Shown: one piece after another, positions 2,859-54,637 of the stretch
How positions within the stretch are numbered: position 1 is the stretch's first letter
Layout: each line of letters opens with the position of its first letter
Assembly: GCF_002802875.1 (NCBI RefSeq)
Contig: NZ_PEBI01000003.1
Span: forward strand, 1 to 64,000
Source: Bifidobacterium primatium
GTDB taxonomy: Bacteria; Actinomycetota; Actinomycetes; Actinomycetales; Bifidobacteriaceae
DNA length: 64,000 nucleotides
Direction: 5' to 3'
Notes under the pieces: model-generated
Seen by the model: the letters and a program-made list of their open reading frames with translations, nothing else
Databases searched by the model: none
Told to the model about the DNA's origin: nothing
Translations under genes and position numbers: made by a program

Positions 2859-4376
2859 TTACAATCCCGCGTCCGCGGGCCTGATGTACCCCGGATCGAT
2901 CAGCATTTTCTTCAGGTTGCTTGCGGAGACGCTGCGAATCGATTCATGCACGGTCGGCACCTTGACATCATCCATCAGCGTTGTGGACAGTTTCAGGGAC
3001 GACGTCGAGGCGAGCTTGTCTCCATTCGCCAGCATCCTGCATATCGTGGCGGCATCTGCCGCGTACTGGTTGCGGTCCTCCAGACCGGTGCTCCACTGTC
3101 GTCCGTTGACGACGTTCGTGATATTGGAAAGATACGCGCCATAGCCAGTGACAATGGGCCAGGCTGGATCGTCCTTGCCATTCTGGACTTCTGCGTCGGT
3201 CTCGGATTCGTCGCCGTCAGCGGAATCCGTCTTGCCTGGATCGGGGACCTTGCCCTTTTTCAGGTCCTTGTTGCCGGCGAGATTATCGACTATGCCGCCG
3301 ATGGTGATTTGTGGATTGATATCCGCGGCCGATCCCTCGTATTTCATGTCCGACAGCGCATCCGTGACCGCCGCCGCAACCATGTCGTTCATGGCCAGTA
3401 CACCATCCAGCGGGGGGTGCAGGTCGTTGTCGTCGTCGAAACCGATTCGTTTGGTGAACTCGGCGGAGATCGCAGAACGGTCGGTATTCTTGACGACCAG
3501 ACTCTTCCAGCTGTCTTCGGTACTCGTCGAATCAAGTGCGCCCGAGGGGCTTACCGCCGCTCCCGATTTGAAGTAGGGGCCGAGAACCTGCCAGATGCCG
3601 GCAAAGATCTCCTTGTCGGTGGCGTCGCCGCTGGAGGGGATAAGAATCTCTACATGCTTCGGATTGGCCTTGGTGGCATGGGAGAGATCGAGTTTGTTGG
3701 CCAGCAATGTGGCCTGCGTATGGGCGATTTCACGTAGGGACGACATCTGCACATACGCATCGGGAGCGTAGCCCTCGATGGTGTTGGCGACGAGCACAAC
3801 GGAGATTCCGGCTTTCTGGGCCTTGACCAGCGATGAGCGGAGCTCGAGGGCATCACTCGCCGATGCTGATGCGGAAGAGGAGACTTTCGCATCAGTCGGG
3901 GAATTCTCCGTGTTTTCGGTGCTCTTGTCGACGGAAAGACTCTGGTTGATATAGTCCCCATATTGACGCGTCGCATCATCGGGCTGTGCGACCGGAGCCA
4001 GGACCAACGTGGCCTTGGCATCCTTCGATGCTTCGTTCTCCTTGGTGAAATCCTCTACGGCACGGGTCTGGTCCTCAAGGGTCTTCGATTTGACGGAAGT
4101 GATGTCATCATCGTCGAAGCCCTGATCCGTAAGGGCCTTTTTCAGGCTGGAACCGAAGGATGTCCATTTGTTCAGAGGAGTGCTCTGCGAAAGGGTGATG
4201 CCGTCGTCGGGGAGCATCAGCGCCACTGGCCCCAATGATGATGTTGTGGCGGAGGGGCTGCTTGATGGAGTGTCCTGTGCCGGCCCGCCGCAGGATGCGG
4301 CGGCGAGCAGCAACGCCATTCCCATCACCGCACCGGTGGCCTTCCGCCCCCACCTGCTCAATCCACGCACTGGCAT
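2859..4376 (-). CDS. Sugar-type substrate-binding lipoprotein, orphan
   Basis: The 505-residue protein has a basic N-terminus, a hydrophobic stretch and a lipobox-like LAAASC (Cys about residue 28), so it is probably lipid-anchored outside the membrane. The remainder resembles a type-1 periplasmic-binding (LacI/ribose-binding) fold, with a GISVVLVANTI segment and a DGVLAMNDMVAAAV segment typical of the second lobe. A low-complexity acidic insert (rich in D, E, S) lies near residues 385–405. No permease or ATPase gene is adjacent, so the ligand and partner are unknown. ATG 4376 is preferred over the GTG at 4379, because an AAGG lies 7 nt upstream of it. It could also be a stand-alone sensor lipoprotein rather than a transporter part. 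Confidence 0.78.
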   Translation of the reverse strand: MPVRGLSRWGRKATGAVMGMALLLAAASCGGPAQDTPSSSPSATTSSLGPVALMLPDDGITLSQSTPLNKWTSFGSSLKKALTDQGFDDDDITSVKSKTLEDQTRAVEDFTKENEASKDAKATLVLAPVAQPDDATRQYGDYINQSLSVDKSTENTENSPTDAKVSSSASASASDALELRSSLVKAQKAGISVVLVANTIEGYAPDAYVQMSSLREIAHTQATLLANKLDLSHATKANPKHVEILIPSSGDATDKEIFAGIWQVLGPYFKSGAAVSPSGALDSTSTEDSWKSLVVKNTDRSAISAEFTKRIGFDDDNDLHPPLDGVLAMNDMVAAAVTDALSDMKYEGSAADINPQITIGGIVDNLAGNKDLKKGKVPDPGKTDSADGDESETDAEVQNGKDDPAWPIVTGYGAYLSNITNVVNGRQWSTGLEDRNQYAADAATICRMLANGDKLASTSSLKLSTTLMDDVKVPTVHESIRSVSASNLKKMLIDPGYIRPADAGL

Positions 4377-48346: not shown

Positions 48347-48420
<74 letters not shown>

Positions 48421-48427
48421 CGATTTA

Positions 48428-48458
48428 GCTCGGAATTTCAACGATTCCGGGCTTTTTT
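48428..48458 (+). terminator. tRNA-Pro terminator
   Basis: GCTCGGAAT and ATTCCGGGC (one G·T pair) form a 9-bp stem with a 7-nt loop, followed by six T. Confidence 0.85.
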
Positions 48459-49363
48459 GTATCTTGCGATAACCCGTGTTTTTACCCGTTCGGACACGAC
48501 GGGAAACGCCACTGCCCCGTGACCGCGTGACCGGCGTTTAGCCGACGTCACAGCCGAAACGCATGTACGCCGACATGGAGCCACTGGCCAACGCCGAAAC
48601 ATACCAAAGTGAAGACACTGAGTCTGGGTTTGACGAGTCGCAGGAGACCAAGCCTCATATCGATGCGCTGGGCTACGGCTGTGATTCCGATGGGGAGCCC
48701 GGACCGGCGCCCCGAATCTCCGTTCCGCGGGGGAGCCAAGGATGACCGGTGCCCATCATCTGCGACGCGTGTCTAGCAAAACGGAGGAGCCGAACCGCGC
48801 GACGCACCAAAAGCAAGGAAAACTCACAGAACCATGATTACCATGGGTACCCATCCGACGAAATCGGCGTGACTGCAGGCGTTATGGAGAAGAACACCAA
48901 CAGTGCACTGGGCGACCTCTCGCTCCCGTTGATTCATCCCGGCAAGAATAGAAGGCGTTTCTTCAAACATAGTCGAAGGTGATTCCGAGGAGCTGAGGAA
49001 CGAAAAGTCCTCGGATACTGGAGGAACGGATCGTCGGTCTTGCCCAGTGCAGTACAGTAGTCGGGCAACGAGTTGAGCAGTCTCGCAAAGAGCAAATCGT
49101 TCTCGGCCCGCCAGCGGTTTGTGACTCTCAGGCCGGTGCGTCGTCTCTCGTCGAGACTCCTCCCGCCTCCTCACGCATTGCCTTTAGCCTTTTGCAGACA
49201 GCCCCATCGACTGGAAAGACTTTCTACGGATAAGAACTCGAACAGGTGAAGTCGCCGCTGCGGATGAACTCACGATTATGTCCAACGTCGAGGTACCCTC
49301 TCGCGAAAGCTGTGACCAAAACACAAAATCAACCGCATAGACCCACGGCTGCGGACTGTCTTA
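48459..49363. other. About 0.9 kb without a convincing gene
   Basis: Downstream of tRNA-Pro I see no gene with normal codon use and a good start. On the minus strand, about 48944–49174, a stop-bounded stretch of about 75 codons reads like protein (TNRWRAENDLLFARLLNSLP…) but has no start or family match and may be a gene remnant. On the plus strand a GTG at 48749, with AGGA upstream, opens a 77-codon frame of doubtful reality. A tandem GTGACCGC/GTGACCGG lies near 48513. No copy of the tRNA 3' end was found to mark an attachment site. Confidence 0.55.
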
Positions 49364-49573
49364 TCAGATGTCGTCCTCGTCGCCGTCATTATGTGGCTTG
49401 TTCCGGGAGTCGTAGACAATACCCAAAAAGACACCAAGCGTCGTGCCGGCCGAAAGCCACAGGACGATGTTATGGGTGAGCATGCCGACGGCGATACCGA
49501 AAAGCATGCCAAGGCAGACGCCGAACGGCAGTCTCGTATGTGGAATGTTGTTTCGCCCATTGCGGTTCGTCAT
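49364..49573 (-). CDS. Small membrane protein
   Basis: This 69-residue protein begins with a basic segment (MTNRNGRNNIPHTRLP). Two hydrophobic helices follow (about 17–34 and 37–54), with glycine-rich patterns such as GVCLGMLFGIAVG. It ends in a very acidic tail (DGDEDDI). The gradient from positive N-terminus to negative C-terminus and the GGGGA 5 nt before the ATG make it look real. I do not recognise the family and no function can be inferred. The 245 bp between it and the next gene hold nothing I can support. Confidence 0.6.
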   Translation of the reverse strand: MTNRNGRNNIPHTRLPFGVCLGMLFGIAVGMLTHNIVLWLSAGTTLGVFLGIVYDSRNKPHNDGDEDDI

Positions 49574-49818
49574 CCGAGTCCCCGTTCTTTTTTGATAGCT
49601 CCCTTTCAGTCTACCTAGACTTTCATCTCTGTTCCCAGTTCAGTGACGGCGCCGATGCCACGCCTTCTGTCATGGGATCCGCCTTAGCCTGAGAGTCGGC
49701 GGTCTCAAGACCATCGCAGACAGCGGCACTGAATAACGGCACCCCCAAACGATGCGGCCTGGAATCAGTTGGTATGAATAAGACCGAGTTGCATTTCTGA
49801 TCGGAGCATTCTCACGTG

Positions 49819-50694
49819 TCATTGTCGAGATAACCGGGCCGCGCGCCGCACATCCGAAAGGAAGGCCTTCAATCGCTTCTCCCGCCTGCGGTTGTCGCAG
49901 AACCGGCATTCCCAATACGACAACACGGTCCATCCCTCATCCACCAGCCGCTGACGGTCCTCCAGCGTCTCCTCCCATTGGGTGGCATGCGCATCCTGCC
50001 ATATGCGCAGCATCTCCGGAGGAAACGCCTTCCTTTTGCATTCCGAACGGTCGTGCCACAGGCACGGGTCCACGAATATCATGATTCGATACTTCGGCAG
50101 CGCGATGTCCGGCGGGCCCGGATACCGATCGTCGTATTTGCGGAACCGGAACCCGTCGCGGAACAGACGCGACCTCAGCCGAGACAGCAACGGCTCCATG
50201 TACGAGGATTTCTCGGCGGTCGTCTTGTTTTGGGATCCGGCGACCTGCAAGGCATAGAGCATGCCCATATCCTGCTCATCCGAACCGTATTTGAAGGATG
50301 CCGTGACGTTCGGGGCCACAATTCCCACAATCGTGCGCACGGTCTCCTTCGCTTCCTCTCGCGACTGCGCTATGCCACGGGCCTCCAATTCGGGGATCGT
50401 ATACACCCATTCGCCGCGGATGTTTTCGATGAACGCCGTGACGCCATTGAGCCTGGCCGGTTCGGGCGCAACCGCCGCCACATGCCGTCTTCTTTGACTC
50501 TTCCAACCGTTACGACGGCCTTGTGACGTCAGATGGTATCCGTGGCATTGAGGACACAGATAATAACGACGTTCATCCTTGGCGGAGGCGGCGCCGCGGC
50601 GTGCGCGGCGCGTTGACGCCAACGCGATCTTGGCGTCCAGCTCGGTGGGGTATCGAATCTTGCCGCACGATCTGGTCGTCTCCTGACGTCCCAT
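49819..50694 (-). CDS. Zinc-ribbon plus Vsr-like endonuclease fold protein
   Basis: The 291-residue protein has two parts. The N-terminal 60 residues carry C10 and a CPQCHGYHLTS ribbon (C47, C50) like those of many actinobacterial and phage proteins. Residues about 165–285 resemble the very-short-patch-repair (Vsr) nuclease: GFRFRKYDDRYPGPPDIALP with the putative metal Asp at 196, then KYRIMIFVDPCLWHD. The Cys zinc ligands C211, C219 and C263 (WEC) fit Vsr. The Vsr histidine corresponding to D209 is changed, while H214 remains. Vsr enzymes nick T·G mismatches left by Dcm-type cytosine methylation, but no methyltransferase gene is nearby. Activity is therefore uncertain. GGGGAG precedes the ATG. 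Confidence 0.72.
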   Translation of the reverse strand: MGRQETTRSCGKIRYPTELDAKIALASTRRARRGAASAKDERRYYLCPQCHGYHLTSQGRRNGWKSQRRRHVAAVAPEPARLNGVTAFIENIRGEWVYTIPELEARGIAQSREEAKETVRTIVGIVAPNVTASFKYGSDEQDMGMLYALQVAGSQNKTTAEKSSYMEPLLSRLRSRLFRDGFRFRKYDDRYPGPPDIALPKYRIMIFVDPCLWHDRSECKRKAFPPEMLRIWQDAHATQWEETLEDRQRLVDEGWTVLSYWECRFCDNRRREKRLKAFLSDVRRAARLSRQ

Positions 50695-50825
50695 ATGCTC
50701 CCCACATCTGCTGTCGTATCTGAAATCTGCGAGCCTTCTTCTTCGGTGTCTTCAGACCCATGGCACCTCCGACAGCAGCAAATACAGGTTGTTATTATTC
50801 CACGTATTCCACGACCGGCTCAAGA

Positions 50826-51038
50826 TCAATCACCGGTTTTCGGCTTCTTGCGTGGCCGTCCTCCACCGACGCCGCGTCCGGGACGGGCCGCATTCCAAGC
50901 GTCTATGGTCTCAGGCAGCCATCCTCGCGTTCTGCCTATCATCACATCCGGTTCGGGCAGCTTGTAACCGGTGGAACTCGGGTTCTTGATACCGAGGCGC
51001 TCGCCGATCTCCTTGATGCCGAGATAATGTGCGGTCAT
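50826..51038 (-). CDS. AlpA/excisionase-like HTH DNA-binding protein
   Basis: This is a 70-residue protein with a MerR/AlpA-type helix-turn-helix: YLGIKEIGERLGI near residues 5–17, then a wing TGYKLPEPDVMIG and GWLPETIDAWNAARPGRG. The C-terminus is basic (RPRKKPKTG). Such small proteins serve as phage regulators or excisionases. ATG 51038 follows GAAGGAG by 5 nt, so an earlier possible start is not needed. It lies upstream of the nuclease-like gene on the same strand, with a 131-bp gap containing a basic mini-frame. Confidence 0.72.
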   Translation of the reverse strand: MTAHYLGIKEIGERLGIKNPSSTGYKLPEPDVMIGRTRGWLPETIDAWNAARPGRGVGGGRPRKKPKTGD

Positions 51039-51132
51039 TGTTTCTCCTTCGTCATTGTTCACTTGTGATACCGTCGCAGTCATGGTCAGGCCTTGAAGAG
51101 CGGGGACTGTCCTCAAGTGAGACGGATACCGC

Positions 51133-51585
51133 TTACTGCTTCTGCGTCTTCACGGTGATGGTCGTTCCCATCATGGTCGTCTGCCAGCTCACGCCATCGG
51201 ATTTCGTATAGGTGAACTCCTTCGTGGCGTCCTGTGAGCCAAGCAGTGACGATTCCATGGCGGCGGTGTCGCCCTTGCTGGTCCATTTCCAGTCGCCGGC
51301 CTTGGTGGGGGCCTCGTAGGTTCCTTTCCAGTACAGGCTCCTGGTATCGGTGCCGACGAAGTTGATTTCGATGGTGTCGGCGGTGATGGTCGCTTCCATA
51401 TAGGAATCCGTGCTGTTCGAATTCGTCTGCTTCCACGTTCCCGTCAGATCAGCTGGTTTCGGTGTTTCCTTTTGCTGTGACGTGCCTGACTGTGCATCGG
51501 TGACCGATGATTCGTTGGAATTGCCGCAGGCGGCCAATACCGTCAGCATCGTTATGACGGCGACTGTTGCGATGATCTTCTTCAT
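51133..51585 (-). CDS. Small lipoprotein, hypothetical
   Basis: The 150-residue protein has a classic lipoprotein signal peptide: KK, a hydrophobic core, and lipobox LAAC with Cys at about residue 20. It is followed by a Ser/Gln/Glu-rich linker. The mature part (about 45–150) is rich in Thr and Trp with alternating beta pattern (TGTWKQT, LYWKGTYEAP, GDWKWTSK) and could be a lipocalin-like barrel of the extracytoplasmic DUF type. Lgt (22303) would process it. Function unknown. GGGAG precedes the ATG and a good promoter lies upstream. Confidence 0.82.
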   Translation of the reverse strand: MKKIIATVAVITMLTVLAACGNSNESSVTDAQSGTSQQKETPKPADLTGTWKQTNSNSTDSYMEATITADTIEINFVGTDTRSLYWKGTYEAPTKAGDWKWTSKGDTAAMESSLLGSQDATKEFTYTKSDGVSWQTTMMGTTITVKTQKQ

Positions 51586-51623
51586 GGCATGCTCCCTTGC
51601 ATTGCTTACGACGGCTCCGGACC

Positions 51624-51652
51624 GTTATATGGTCTGCCGCAATTGCATACAA
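51624..51652 (-). promoter_or_regulatory. Lipoprotein gene promoter
   Basis: On the minus strand TTGTAT, a 17-nt spacer and TATAAC give a well-spaced promoter with start near 51617, about 32 nt before the ATG. Confidence 0.7.
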
Positions 51653-51918
51653 CACTACAGGTCAATGGCGATTGAGATACGTCGAGTGTGTCTCCGTTGG
51701 CCGGCTTCCATGGACCTGATTCTCGTAAGCCAAATCAGCTGCCGAGAATTGTTCCGCACTTTGCCTGTTGGCCGGCGCAACACCACAATAACCATCTCGG
51801 AATCGAATCACCACCCATCAACCACCACGATTCCATGGCGACTTTCCTTATGCCTGTGGGCCAGAAGAAAAAGAAGAGCCGATGTCCAGCAAAAACACGA
51901 CGGTATGCCATCCCGACG

Positions 51919-51924
51919 TACAGT
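51919..51924 (+). promoter_or_regulatory. -10-like box before GNAT gene
   Basis: TACAGT ends 7 nt before ATG 51932, the leaderless geometry seen elsewhere in this window. AGGAAT in the spacer could alternatively be a weak ribosome site. The rest of the 346-bp divergent region (51586–51931) holds no gene; a GTTGGCCGGC motif occurs twice, near 51698 and 51767. Confidence 0.4.
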
Positions 51925-51931
51925 AGGAATC

Positions 51932-52405
51932 ATGCGATTCCTCATCCGCAGATACCGTTCCGGTGACGCCGCAGCGACTCTCGCGGTATTCCGCAAGTCA
52001 ATCGCCGGCCTAGCGTCACACGACTACGATACGAAGCAGATTCGCGTCTGGGCCGGCCATACGGGAACCATATGGCAATGGGACCGGCAACGATCATCCA
52101 CACCCACATGGGTCGCCACGCCACCGGATGACGATGAAGCGGTTACAGGCTTCATCGACGTCGACGAAAACGGATACATCGGCAGGCTGTTCGTGGACCC
52201 GACACACGCGAGACTCGGCATGGCATCGATGCTCCTCACCGAAATGGAACACCACACCCGCGCTCGCGGTCTGACACAGCTGAGCGTGCACACGAGCAGC
52301 ACCGCAAGACCGTTCTTCGAACATCACGGATTCCATGTCGAGCAGGTCCGACACCCGGCAATCGGGACCATATCGTTCACCAACTACCTGATGGTCAGAC
52401 CATAA
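51932..52405 (+). CDS. GNAT family N-acetyltransferase
   Basis: The 157-residue protein has the GNAT fold: beta-1 MRFLIRRYRSGDAAATLAVF, central strand with GFIDVDENGYIGRLFVDP near 78, and the acetyl-CoA pyrophosphate loop THARLGMASMLL near 96 (a variant of RxxGxG/A). The C-terminal strand reads FFEHHGFHVEQ. Substrate unknown; small GNATs acetylate amino groups of metabolites or proteins. It is divergent from the lipoprotein gene and lies in the region with C/A-rich top strand. Confidence 0.88.
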   Translation: MRFLIRRYRSGDAAATLAVFRKSIAGLASHDYDTKQIRVWAGHTGTIWQWDRQRSSTPTWVATPPDDDEAVTGFIDVDENGYIGRLFVDPTHARLGMASMLLTEMEHHTRARGLTQLSVHTSSTARPFFEHHGFHVEQVRHPAIGTISFTNYLMVRP

Positions 52406-52479
52406 CCACCAGACCGGCACCCTTTTGATTCTCGCCGAACACCGGGCAGACGCATCTCGCGCCGAAACACAGGTCCAAA

Positions 52480-52869
52480 TCAGAGAACGGCGGAAACCAA
52501 CAGGAGGGCCAGCGAAACAACCGGGAACAACGCCTGCTTGACGGCAGCGCCACGCTTATCGGGACTGCCGGTGAACAACACCAGGGCGGCGAGTGCCATG
52601 GACACGGTGCCCGCAACCATCAACGTCACGCCGACGACATACTGCCCGGCGAAAACAAGCACCGCACCCACCAAGGCCATGACGCCGAGAAACAGATTAT
52701 AGAAGCCCTGGTTATAGGCCATCTCTCTCGTCGCCTCCGCCTCCTGCGACGACACGATGGAAAACGTCCTCATCGTCCTCGGATCGGTCCAGCGAAACGA
52801 CTCCAAAACAAAAATCAGCCCATGAAGCAACCCGGCAAGAACCGCGAACACACACGACGCCACGAGCAT
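52480..52869 (-). CDS. DUF1304 family membrane protein
   Basis: The 129-residue protein has four predicted membrane helices (about 1–18, 58–76, 78–96 and 105–126). The DUF1304 block with HGLIFVLESFRWTDPRT near residue 15 and the motif NQGFYNLFLG near 50 are family signatures. Function unknown. ATG 52869 was chosen because GGGAGGG precedes it; an upstream start adds a non-conserved segment. It is divergent from nhaA with 276 bp between starts. Confidence 0.88.
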   Translation of the reverse strand: MLVASCVFAVLAGLLHGLIFVLESFRWTDPRTMRTFSIVSSQEAEATREMAYNQGFYNLFLGVMALVGAVLVFAGQYVVGVTLMVAGTVSMALAALVLFTGSPDKRGAAVKQALFPVVSLALLLVSAVL

Positions 52870-52925
52870 ACGAATTCCCTCCCACACACAACAAAACGTC
52901 AAACACAATAACAGTCCCCATATAA

Positions 52926-52949
52926 AAGACCACTAGTAGAAGACCACTA
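52926..52949. repeat. Tandem AAGACCACTA repeats
   Basis: AAGACCACTA occurs twice with a 14-bp period, in the divergent region between the DUF1304 gene and nhaA. This could be an operator pair. A GATGGG/CCCATC hairpin also lies at about 53033–53051 in the nhaA leader. Confidence 0.45.
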
Positions 52950-53145
52950 AACCAGCCGCCATACAACACGTTCAATAGCGACGCCGGCAGCAACCGCATA
53001 CGCCGCGCGCCACGTCATGTTTCGCGCACGGCGATGGGGGAGAAGCCCATCATGTACTCTGGAAAGGTTGAATCCTCGCGGCCGCAAACCAGCCAACAAC
53101 CAACGGCCGACTCCATTCACAAAAGCAGTTGTTAGGAGCAAACAC

Positions 53146-54516
53146 ATGACATCAGGTCCCCAAATCCACGAGGGCATACTCGAACCCGGCGCCATCAACA
53201 TCCACAAAGGCAAACGACGCCTCATCGAACTCACCCACTCGTCCACCAAAGCCACCATACTCATGGTGTCCGCCGCGCTCGCCGCCTTCGCCATCGAAAA
53301 CACGCCGGCACTGCCATACTTCAACGAATTCTGGCAATCCGTGCACCTGACATTCTCCGTCGGCGCATTCCATGCGAACATCAGCCTCGAACACTTCATC
53401 AACGACTTCCTCATGGCCCTGTTCTTCCTCATGGTCGGCCTCGAGATCAAACACGAAATACGCGCCGGAGAACTCACCGAACCACGCAAGGCCATACTGC
53501 CCATCGTCGCCGCCGCAGGAGGTGCCATACTCCCTGCCATCATCTACCTGATCGTGAACGTCGGCGGCCAATACGCGGGCGGATGGGGAGTGCCCATGGC
53601 CAACGACATCGCCTTCTGCCTCGGCCTGCTCGCCCTACTCGGACGACGCATACCATCGGGGCTGCGCGCCTACCTATCCACGCTCACCATCGCCGACGAC
53701 ATGATCGCCATCGCCGTCATCGCACTCTTCTACACCACCAACCTCAGCCTGCCCTGGCTCATCGCCGCACTCGCCGCATACGCCCTGCTCATCGCATTCA
53801 ACCGCTGCCACATCTACGACCTGCCGCCATACCTCATCGTCGGATTCATCCTATGGGTGTGCATGCTCTTCTCCGGAATCCACGCCACCCTGGCCGGCGT
53901 CATGCTGGCGCTTGCCATTCCGGCCCGTTCCGAAATCAGGCTGGACCGGGTGGGCGGCTGGTTCGCGCATCGTGTGCGCAAGGCCGAGGACCGCTACTCT
54001 CCTGACGAGCCGGATGTGGCGCAGCGGGAATACCTGCGTGAGGTGTATTCGATCCGCCGCGTATCGCACGCCACGATTCCGCCGACGATCCGTCTGGAAA
54101 AGCGCCTGCATACGTTCGTGTACTTCTTCGTGCTGCCGTTGTTCGCGTTCTCGAACGCCGGCGTGATACTCGCCGGCATGTCGTTCACTCAGGTCGTGAC
54201 CAGTCCGGTGGCGATAGGCGTGTTTCTGGGGCTGCTTGTCGGCAAGCCTCTCGGAATCTTCATCGCCACATGGGCTACGGTGAGGCTGGGTGTTTCGCAA
54301 CTTCCCAAGGGCGTGCAATGGGGTCACATCGTTGGTGTGTCGGCGCTTGGTGGCGTGGGATTCACCATGGCGATCTTCGTGACGAACCTGTCGTTCACGG
54401 ACCCGCAGGTCACGGCGGTCGCCAAGACAGCCATCCTTGCCGCGTCCATCCTTGCCGGTGCCATCGGCTTCCTGATTCTGCGGCGCGAGGCGTTGAACGC
54501 CGAACACGGATCCTGA
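53146..54516 (+). CDS. nhaA: Na+/H+ antiporter NhaA
   Basis: The 456-residue antiporter exports Na+ in exchange for H+, aiding salt and pH tolerance. FFLMVGLEIKHEIRAGEL near residue 90 is the family block, and TIADDMIAIAVIALFY near 182 has the two transport aspartates; NDIAFCLG lies between. The C-terminal third includes VGKPLGIF. A cytoplasmic insert of about 65 residues (270–325) between membrane helices is rich in Arg and Glu. ATG 53146 follows AGGAGC. Base composition of codon third positions flips from C/A to G/T at about 53930. Confidence 0.95.
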   Translation: MTSGPQIHEGILEPGAINIHKGKRRLIELTHSSTKATILMVSAALAAFAIENTPALPYFNEFWQSVHLTFSVGAFHANISLEHFINDFLMALFFLMVGLEIKHEIRAGELTEPRKAILPIVAAAGGAILPAIIYLIVNVGGQYAGGWGVPMANDIAFCLGLLALLGRRIPSGLRAYLSTLTIADDMIAIAVIALFYTTNLSLPWLIAALAAYALLIAFNRCHIYDLPPYLIVGFILWVCMLFSGIHATLAGVMLALAIPARSEIRLDRVGGWFAHRVRKAEDRYSPDEPDVAQREYLREVYSIRRVSHATIPPTIRLEKRLHTFVYFFVLPLFAFSNAGVILAGMSFTQVVTSPVAIGVFLGLLVGKPLGIFIATWATVRLGVSQLPKGVQWGHIVGVSALGGVGFTMAIFVTNLSFTDPQVTAVAKTAILAASILAGAIGFLILRREALNAEHGS

Positions 54517-54522
54517 CGCGGC

Positions 54523-54569
54523 GATGCCGAAGTGGATTCTCCCGCTTCGGCATCGAAGGGTCTGTTTTT
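54523..54569 (+). terminator. nhaA terminator
   Basis: GATGCCGAAG and CTTCGGCATC form a perfect 10-bp stem with a 12-nt loop, and a TTTTT run follows 10 nt downstream. The distance of the T-run weakens it. Confidence 0.65.
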
Positions 54570-54637
54570 ATCGGTATCGGCAATCAATCTTACGAAACTT
54601 GCCCAAAAGCATTAGGAAGAGGCAAGCCGTCATCCTA

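Follow-up and report, generated by a model that had tools for sequence, protein, structure and literature searches.

A Vsr-like three-domain protein of bifidobacteria, possibly a mobile, re-targeted DNA nickase

Introduction

What does a Vsr-type nuclease do in a Bifidobacterium genome when it carries two extra domains and has no methyltransferase gene at its side? The window analysed here, a stretch of 64,000 nucleotides of Bifidobacterium primatium DNA, encodes such a protein. The first-pass annotation saw in it a repurposed or inactive enzyme on two grounds, an Asp at the usual catalytic His position and the lack of a neighbouring Dcm-like methyltransferase gene. I followed up both grounds. 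My tentative reading, which I would put a little short of an even chance, is that this Vsr-like three-domain protein (VSRL) is a mobile, re-targeted Vsr-type DNA nickase specific to the Bifidobacteriaceae, whose activity may be weakened.

Domain architecture of VSRL

The following features were assigned to the gene.

49819..50694, minus strand: ORF of VSRL, 291 amino acids (ORF call, Pfam, phmmer, and structure model)
50524..50676, minus strand: zinc-ribbon module, residues 7–57, with C10, C47, C50, H51, and H54 (PHROG matches)
50236..50457, minus strand: middle domain, residues 80–153, strand-strand-strand-helix-strand-helix (structure models and profile search)
49831..50217, minus strand: Vsr domain, residues 160–288 (Pfam, phmmer, and model compared with 1cw0)

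Thus, an N-terminal zinc ribbon is followed by a middle beta-alpha domain and a C-terminal Vsr domain. The Pfam family Vsr (PF03852) matched residues 172–217 with an E-value of 1.4e-14 and 54.1 bits (cut-off 27), phmmer aligned residues 169–273 with E. coli Vsr structures (E 6e-13), and the PPD, WH, and WEC motifs were found in the domain. The score against TIGR00632 was 64.2, which lies under the curated cut-off of 97.85. A structure model was made from a 25-row alignment; its mean pLDDT was 79, and most of the Vsr domain was above 90. The best solved match was E. coli Vsr 1cw0 (Z 12.2, rmsd 3.4, 138 residues), and the other matches were 1vsr (Z 11.8), NGO0050 (Z 9.6), and I-Bth0305I (Z 9.4). 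The structure prediction that the first-pass annotation had proposed therefore gave a Vsr fold, and its description, a protein of the Vsr fold extended by an N-terminal and a middle domain, is borne out by Pfam, phmmer, and the model. VSRL is not a chance ORF; the Bifidobacterium orthologues are 61–79% identical, and dN/dS is about 0.18 against the closest intact one. VSRL shares with E. coli Vsr (PDB 1vsr/1cw0; PF03852, TIGR00632) not only the fold but also the equivalents of Glu25, Asp51, His69, and the zinc ligands Cys66, Cys73, and Cys117, as well as the G-W and WEC motifs. It differs in its 160 extra N-terminal residues, its score under the TIGR00632 cut-off, its unlinked state, the absence of Asp97, Arg96, and the His71 zinc ligand, and the Asp at position 64.

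The zinc ribbon matches two phage families, phrog_3424 (1.6e-7) and phrog_15216 (6.4e-6). These small phage proteins share the module CGK...CPxCxxxHLTS with VSRL; in phages it stands alone, while in VSRL it is fused to a Vsr domain. C47, C50, and H54 are identical in all of the seven VSRL proteins. Judged by its sequence, the zinc ribbon is a putative mix-and-match module of the phage type. The same module was also seen at the head of other Bifidobacterium proteins (L075–L081, about 200–250 aa) whose C-termini are unrelated.

A profile search of 189 Bifidobacteriaceae genomes found the middle domain only in VSRL proteins, and a Pfam search with it gave no match. Foldseek paired it with the HicB-like structure 2yzt with a probability of 0.99 over 41 columns, yet with an E-value of 0.06, and with the antitoxin 3k6q with a probability of 0.95. 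The VIA Z-scores did not exceed 5.5, and unrelated rows scored equally high. These matches are suggestive of a fold that may resemble HicB-like/UPF0150 proteins.

Methyltransferase linkage and the canonical Vsr

Is the missing methyltransferase a sign of a new function? No C5 methyltransferase was detected within the window, as the annotation had stated. The genome-context survey that it had called for gave the same picture: no C5 methyltransferase turned up around the searched VSRL loci, nor around any of 46 canonical ones, in a search of moderate sensitivity with a few queries from this genome and about 1.5 kb on each side of the canonical loci. This genome's own canonical Vsr (G000:C2:304100) is surrounded by housekeeping genes and also has no methyltransferase nearby, so the missing linkage is uninformative for VSRL. 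The unlinked state is normal in the family, and the orphan status was dropped as an argument for repurposing. The absence of linkage is thus a trap, not a sign of repurposing.

The canonical Vsr proteins of the genome and the family are about 32–35% identical to VSRL over the Vsr domain and likewise unlinked to a methyltransferase. They have a single domain, the full EDxHD set, and an Asn at position 64, and are present in most Bifidobacteriaceae, whereas VSRL is rare and mobile. The genome's own copy (G000:C2:304100; locus L039, about 7.97–8.45 kb), with an Asn at the His64 position, lies near 4-alpha-glucanotransferase-like and ribosomal protein genes.

It is rather improbable that VSRL is an ordinary very-short-patch (VSP) repair enzyme with accessory domains, nicking T:G mismatches left by deaminated 5mC of unlinked methyltransferases. 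Its Vsr family membership by Pfam fits, and C5 methyltransferases are encoded on other contigs of the same genome, unlinked to VSRL. Moreover, orphan Vsr-like proteins can be linked in function with a methyltransferase at a distance, as with Caulobacter VsrA, itself unlinked, which is functionally tied to ScmA (PMC12907096). This DUF559/Vsr-like protein resembles VSRL in the missing linkage and in the Asp at the His64 position, but has neither a zinc ribbon nor a middle domain. Against the repair role, a canonical Vsr with all catalytic residues is encoded in this genome too, so VSP repair could proceed without VSRL. The TIGR00632 score given above and the sporadic, horizontally transferred distribution described below are also unlike a core repair gene.

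Active-site and zinc-ligand residues

The active-site set of Vsr consists of E25, D51, H64, H69, and D97 (PMC12907096). The corresponding positions of VSRL were read from alignments.

50194..50196, minus strand: Glu167, equivalent to E. coli Glu25 given a 3-residue insertion after it; invariant
50107..50109, minus strand: Asp196, equivalent to Asp51; kept in the window copy, Ser in the g3 relatives
50068..50070, minus strand: Asp209, at the His64 position, naturally variable N/D/H (alignment and motif census)
50053..50055, minus strand: His214, equivalent to His69; kept
49966..49968, minus strand: Thr243, at the Asp97 position; Asp97 is lost in every VSRL protein read

Asp209 indeed aligns with E. 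coli His64, but it is not abnormal. Among 66 actinobacterial Vsr-domain motifs, the position is Asn in 53, Asp in 7, and His in 6, a count in which Bifidobacteriaceae weigh heavily toward Asn and a few loci occur twice. An Asp is also reported at this position in V.NgoAXIII and V.Nme18VIP, functional enzymes of Neisseria, and in Caulobacter VsrA (PMC12907096). Since the position is N, D, or H across actinobacterial Vsr proteins, the altered His was ruled out as a sign of repurposing, and a His at position 64 is no hallmark of active Vsr enzymes. The zinc cysteines reported as kept are present (C211, C219, and C263 for Cys66, Cys73, and Cys117). Nevertheless, only these three of the four zinc ligands stay, with Arg216 at the His71 position (Asp in the g3 relatives).

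The Glu25, Asp51, and His69 equivalents are retained in the five Bifidobacterium VSRL proteins checked (5/5). In contrast to the Asp of 18/18 canonical proteins, the Asp97 position is Thr, Ala, or Met in VSRL proteins, and the Asp97 and Arg96 equivalents are both missing from all of the seven read. Hence, the set of Glu25, Asp51, His69, and Asp97 (with position 64 variable) is incomplete, and E-D-x-H-D lacks its last D. The true departures from Vsr are the missing Asp97 and Arg96 equivalents and one lost zinc ligand, not Asp209.

The two distant relatives of genus g3 have gone further, with Ser for Asp51 and Lys at position 64. Their constrained role can hardly be Vsr-type catalysis, because Asp51 is lost and yet the dN/dS of the pair is 0.17. 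This state, together with the loss of Asp97 and Arg96 from 7/7 VSRL proteins, speaks for the main rival explanation, which I regard as real but doubtful: VSRL may be a catalytically dead Vsr-fold protein whose Vsr domain, along with the zinc ribbon and middle domain, just binds DNA or another partner, for example as a regulator or a packaging or structural factor. A precedent is FASTKD4, which has a Vsr-like fold and for which the authors conclude RNA binding without cutting (PMC11879112). On the other hand, binding alone needs no Glu25, Asp51, or His69 equivalents, which all five Bifidobacterium proteins checked keep, and between the window and B. biavatii no part of VSRL is more constrained than the Vsr domain (see the last but one section).

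Distribution and horizontal transfer

The full-length architecture was found in 9 of the 189 Bifidobacteriaceae genomes, and the named carriers are B. biavatii, B. pluvialisilvae, B. moraviense, and B. colobi. Outside the family, a profile search of 395 class-sampled genomes gave only single-domain matches.

VSRL was compared with the product of a housekeeping gene of the window, the UTP-glucose-1-phosphate uridylyltransferase-like (UGP) gene. Between the window and B. biavatii, VSRL is 79% identical and UGP 73%, and the dN values are 0.118 for VSRL and 0.216 for UGP. Between the window and B. pluvialisilvae, VSRL is 76% identical and UGP 95%, with dN values of 0.157 and 0.030, respectively. 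The VSRL tree unites the window with B. biavatii, B. pluvialisilvae, and B. moraviense in a single clade (100/97), whereas the UGP tree pairs B. biavatii with another carrier genome, G131 (99/98). The pairing of B. biavatii with G131 is rejected by VSRL (p-AU 0.002), and the grouping of the window with B. biavatii and B. moraviense is rejected by UGP (p-AU 1.4e-5). The natural reading of this supported conflict, in a test that relies on UGP as the one housekeeping gene, is that VSRL has passed horizontally between species.

Is VSRL then a phage or plasmid gene? Neither assignment was kept. The single viral-contig match is a contig of B. biavatii, where the gene lies beside an integrase, and no phage record with more than one VSRL domain was found. 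The plasmid matches are limited to the Vsr domain.

The annotation's notion of a repurposed or inactive function describes a realistic state, while both arguments offered for it, Asp209 and the missing methyltransferase, fail. Better arguments are the loss of Asp97 and Arg96, the loss of Asp51 under selection in the g3 relatives, the lineage-specific architecture, and the horizontal transfer.

The VSRL locus and its island

Three features of the window bear on the mobility of the gene.

48347..48421, plus strand: tRNA-Pro(GGG), integration hotspot beside VSRL
48464..54632, no strand assigned: genomic island, approximate extent, from tRNA-Pro to the UGP gene (absent in the close relative G002)
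50826..51116, minus strand: small phage-type DNA-binding protein upstream of VSRL (phrog_597, E 2.8e-25)

In G002 (L139), tRNA-Pro at 3914–3768 is followed by the UGP gene region from 3632, a gap of about 140 bp, so the roughly 6.2 kb between the two genes in the window is an island. A direct repeat bounding the island was searched for in the window and none was found. The tRNA-Pro(GGG) gene is regarded as a hotspot because displaced copies of the tRNA 3′ part exist in several relatives. In G001, G003, G005, G006, and G008, copies of the 3′ half (window 48387–48460) are separated from the intact tRNA by distances of several to tens of kb. The gene at 50826–51116 is a probable remnant of a mobile or integrative element.

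The gene neighbours of VSRL vary between genomes: tRNA-Pro and der in G131, an integrase and DUF1304 in B. biavatii, lhr in B. colobi, and tRNA-Leu and a SpoU methylase in g3. No conserved partner gene was found among the VSRL loci compared. The PADLOC defence models returned only the generic Vsr model for VSRL, and no defence system was called. In G131, VSRL is separated from the complete tRNA-Pro by a partial copy of this tRNA with its upstream flank (L070 8823–8900 and 9061–9172), the trace of an integration or a recombination.

Does the gene spread by itself? The DNA similarity of the window to B. biavatii, B. pluvialisilvae, and B. moraviense covers about 49813–50784, i.e., the gene and its ribosome-binding site, and stops at the gene ends. 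Such confinement to the gene, the horizontal transfer, and the copies at different loci, some of them decaying, would suit a free-standing EDxHD homing endonuclease that cuts alleles devoid of its gene, spreads the gene in this way, and reads a long target through the zinc ribbon and the middle domain. The Vsr domain model also resembles the catalytic domain of I-Bth0305I (PDB 3r3p, Z 9.4), and EDxHD homing enzymes likewise join the nuclease to extra DNA-binding regions (PMC3943268), as VSRL has additional putative DNA-binding parts. This explanation is nevertheless quite improbable. There is no common insertion target, the gene being found next to tRNA-Pro, tRNA-Leu, lhr, DUF1304, or GNAT genes, and a site that lacks exactly this gene was seen neither among the neighbours nor in G002, where the site is empty only at the island level. 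Unlike these homing enzymes, VSRL is not borne by an intron or intein, lacks the final D, and has other accessory domains. The island and the integrase neighbours account for the mobility without homing.

Decay of the window copy and selection

50695..50761, minus strand: 5′ end of the ancestral frame, with ATG at 50759–50761, MGLKTPKKKARRFQIRQQMWG, preceded by GGAGGTGCC (alignment with three orthologues)

The orthologues reveal a native start upstream of the annotated ATG, with MGLKTPK or a similar sequence; except for G137, all full-length relatives begin with MG-I/L-K/R-TPK. Relative to the orthologues, the window copy has a 1-bp insertion, possibly a sequencing error, in the G run right before the annotated ATG. 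This one extra base puts the native start out of frame, so that only an internal ATG, with GGGGAG close by, remains. The window copy is thus probably impaired. A programmed frameshift was excluded, since the frame is continuous in B. biavatii, B. colobi, and G131. B. pluvialisilvae and B. moraviense have frameshifts of their own, and the latter also has a stop, so that three of the seven Bifidobacterium copies are frameshifted. Prior to the frameshifts, VSRL evolved under purifying selection; the dN/dS between the window and B. biavatii is 0.18 for the whole gene and 0.11 for the Vsr domain.

A possible role of VSRL

If VSRL is a re-targeted nickase, its zinc ribbon and middle domain would serve to bind DNA or hold it in position, and the Vsr domain would make a metal-dependent single-strand cut at something other than methylation-linked T:G mismatches. 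Its activity would be lowered or altered because Asp97 is gone. Most plausibly, VSRL would be an accessory cargo of integrative elements and not a part of host 5mC repair.

In favour of such an enzyme are the Vsr fold, the kept equivalents of Glu25, Asp51, and His69, an Asp at position 64 that is compatible with activity, the purifying selection, the transfer between species, and the island beside tRNA-Pro. Several observations argue against this nickase. Every member lacks Arg96 and Asp97, the final D of EDxHD, and catalysis could be abolished as a result. The match of Glu167 to Glu25 needs the 3-residue insertion, and an ungapped phmmer alignment places Leu170 at that position instead. The g3 relatives, constrained without Asp51, point to a non-catalytic role there, and the frameshifts in three of the seven Bifidobacterium copies suggest a dispensable gene. 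A bolder version of the nickase reading, which I consider unlikely, is that bifidobacteria have in VSRL a mobile and self-contained nuclease gene, whose phage-derived zinc ribbon and lineage-specific middle domain re-target the nuclease against competing mobile elements or empty integration sites, with one branch having become a non-catalytic DNA binder.

From complete Vsr active sites through the loss of Asp97 to the loss of Asp51, these proteins form a natural series under selection. With this series, one can test which residues are required for cutting by the Vsr fold, and at which point a binding module arises. The g3 relatives at its end (L003 688–2124 and L004 607–2118) are also longer, about 480–505 aa, with a longer linker and a C-terminal extension.
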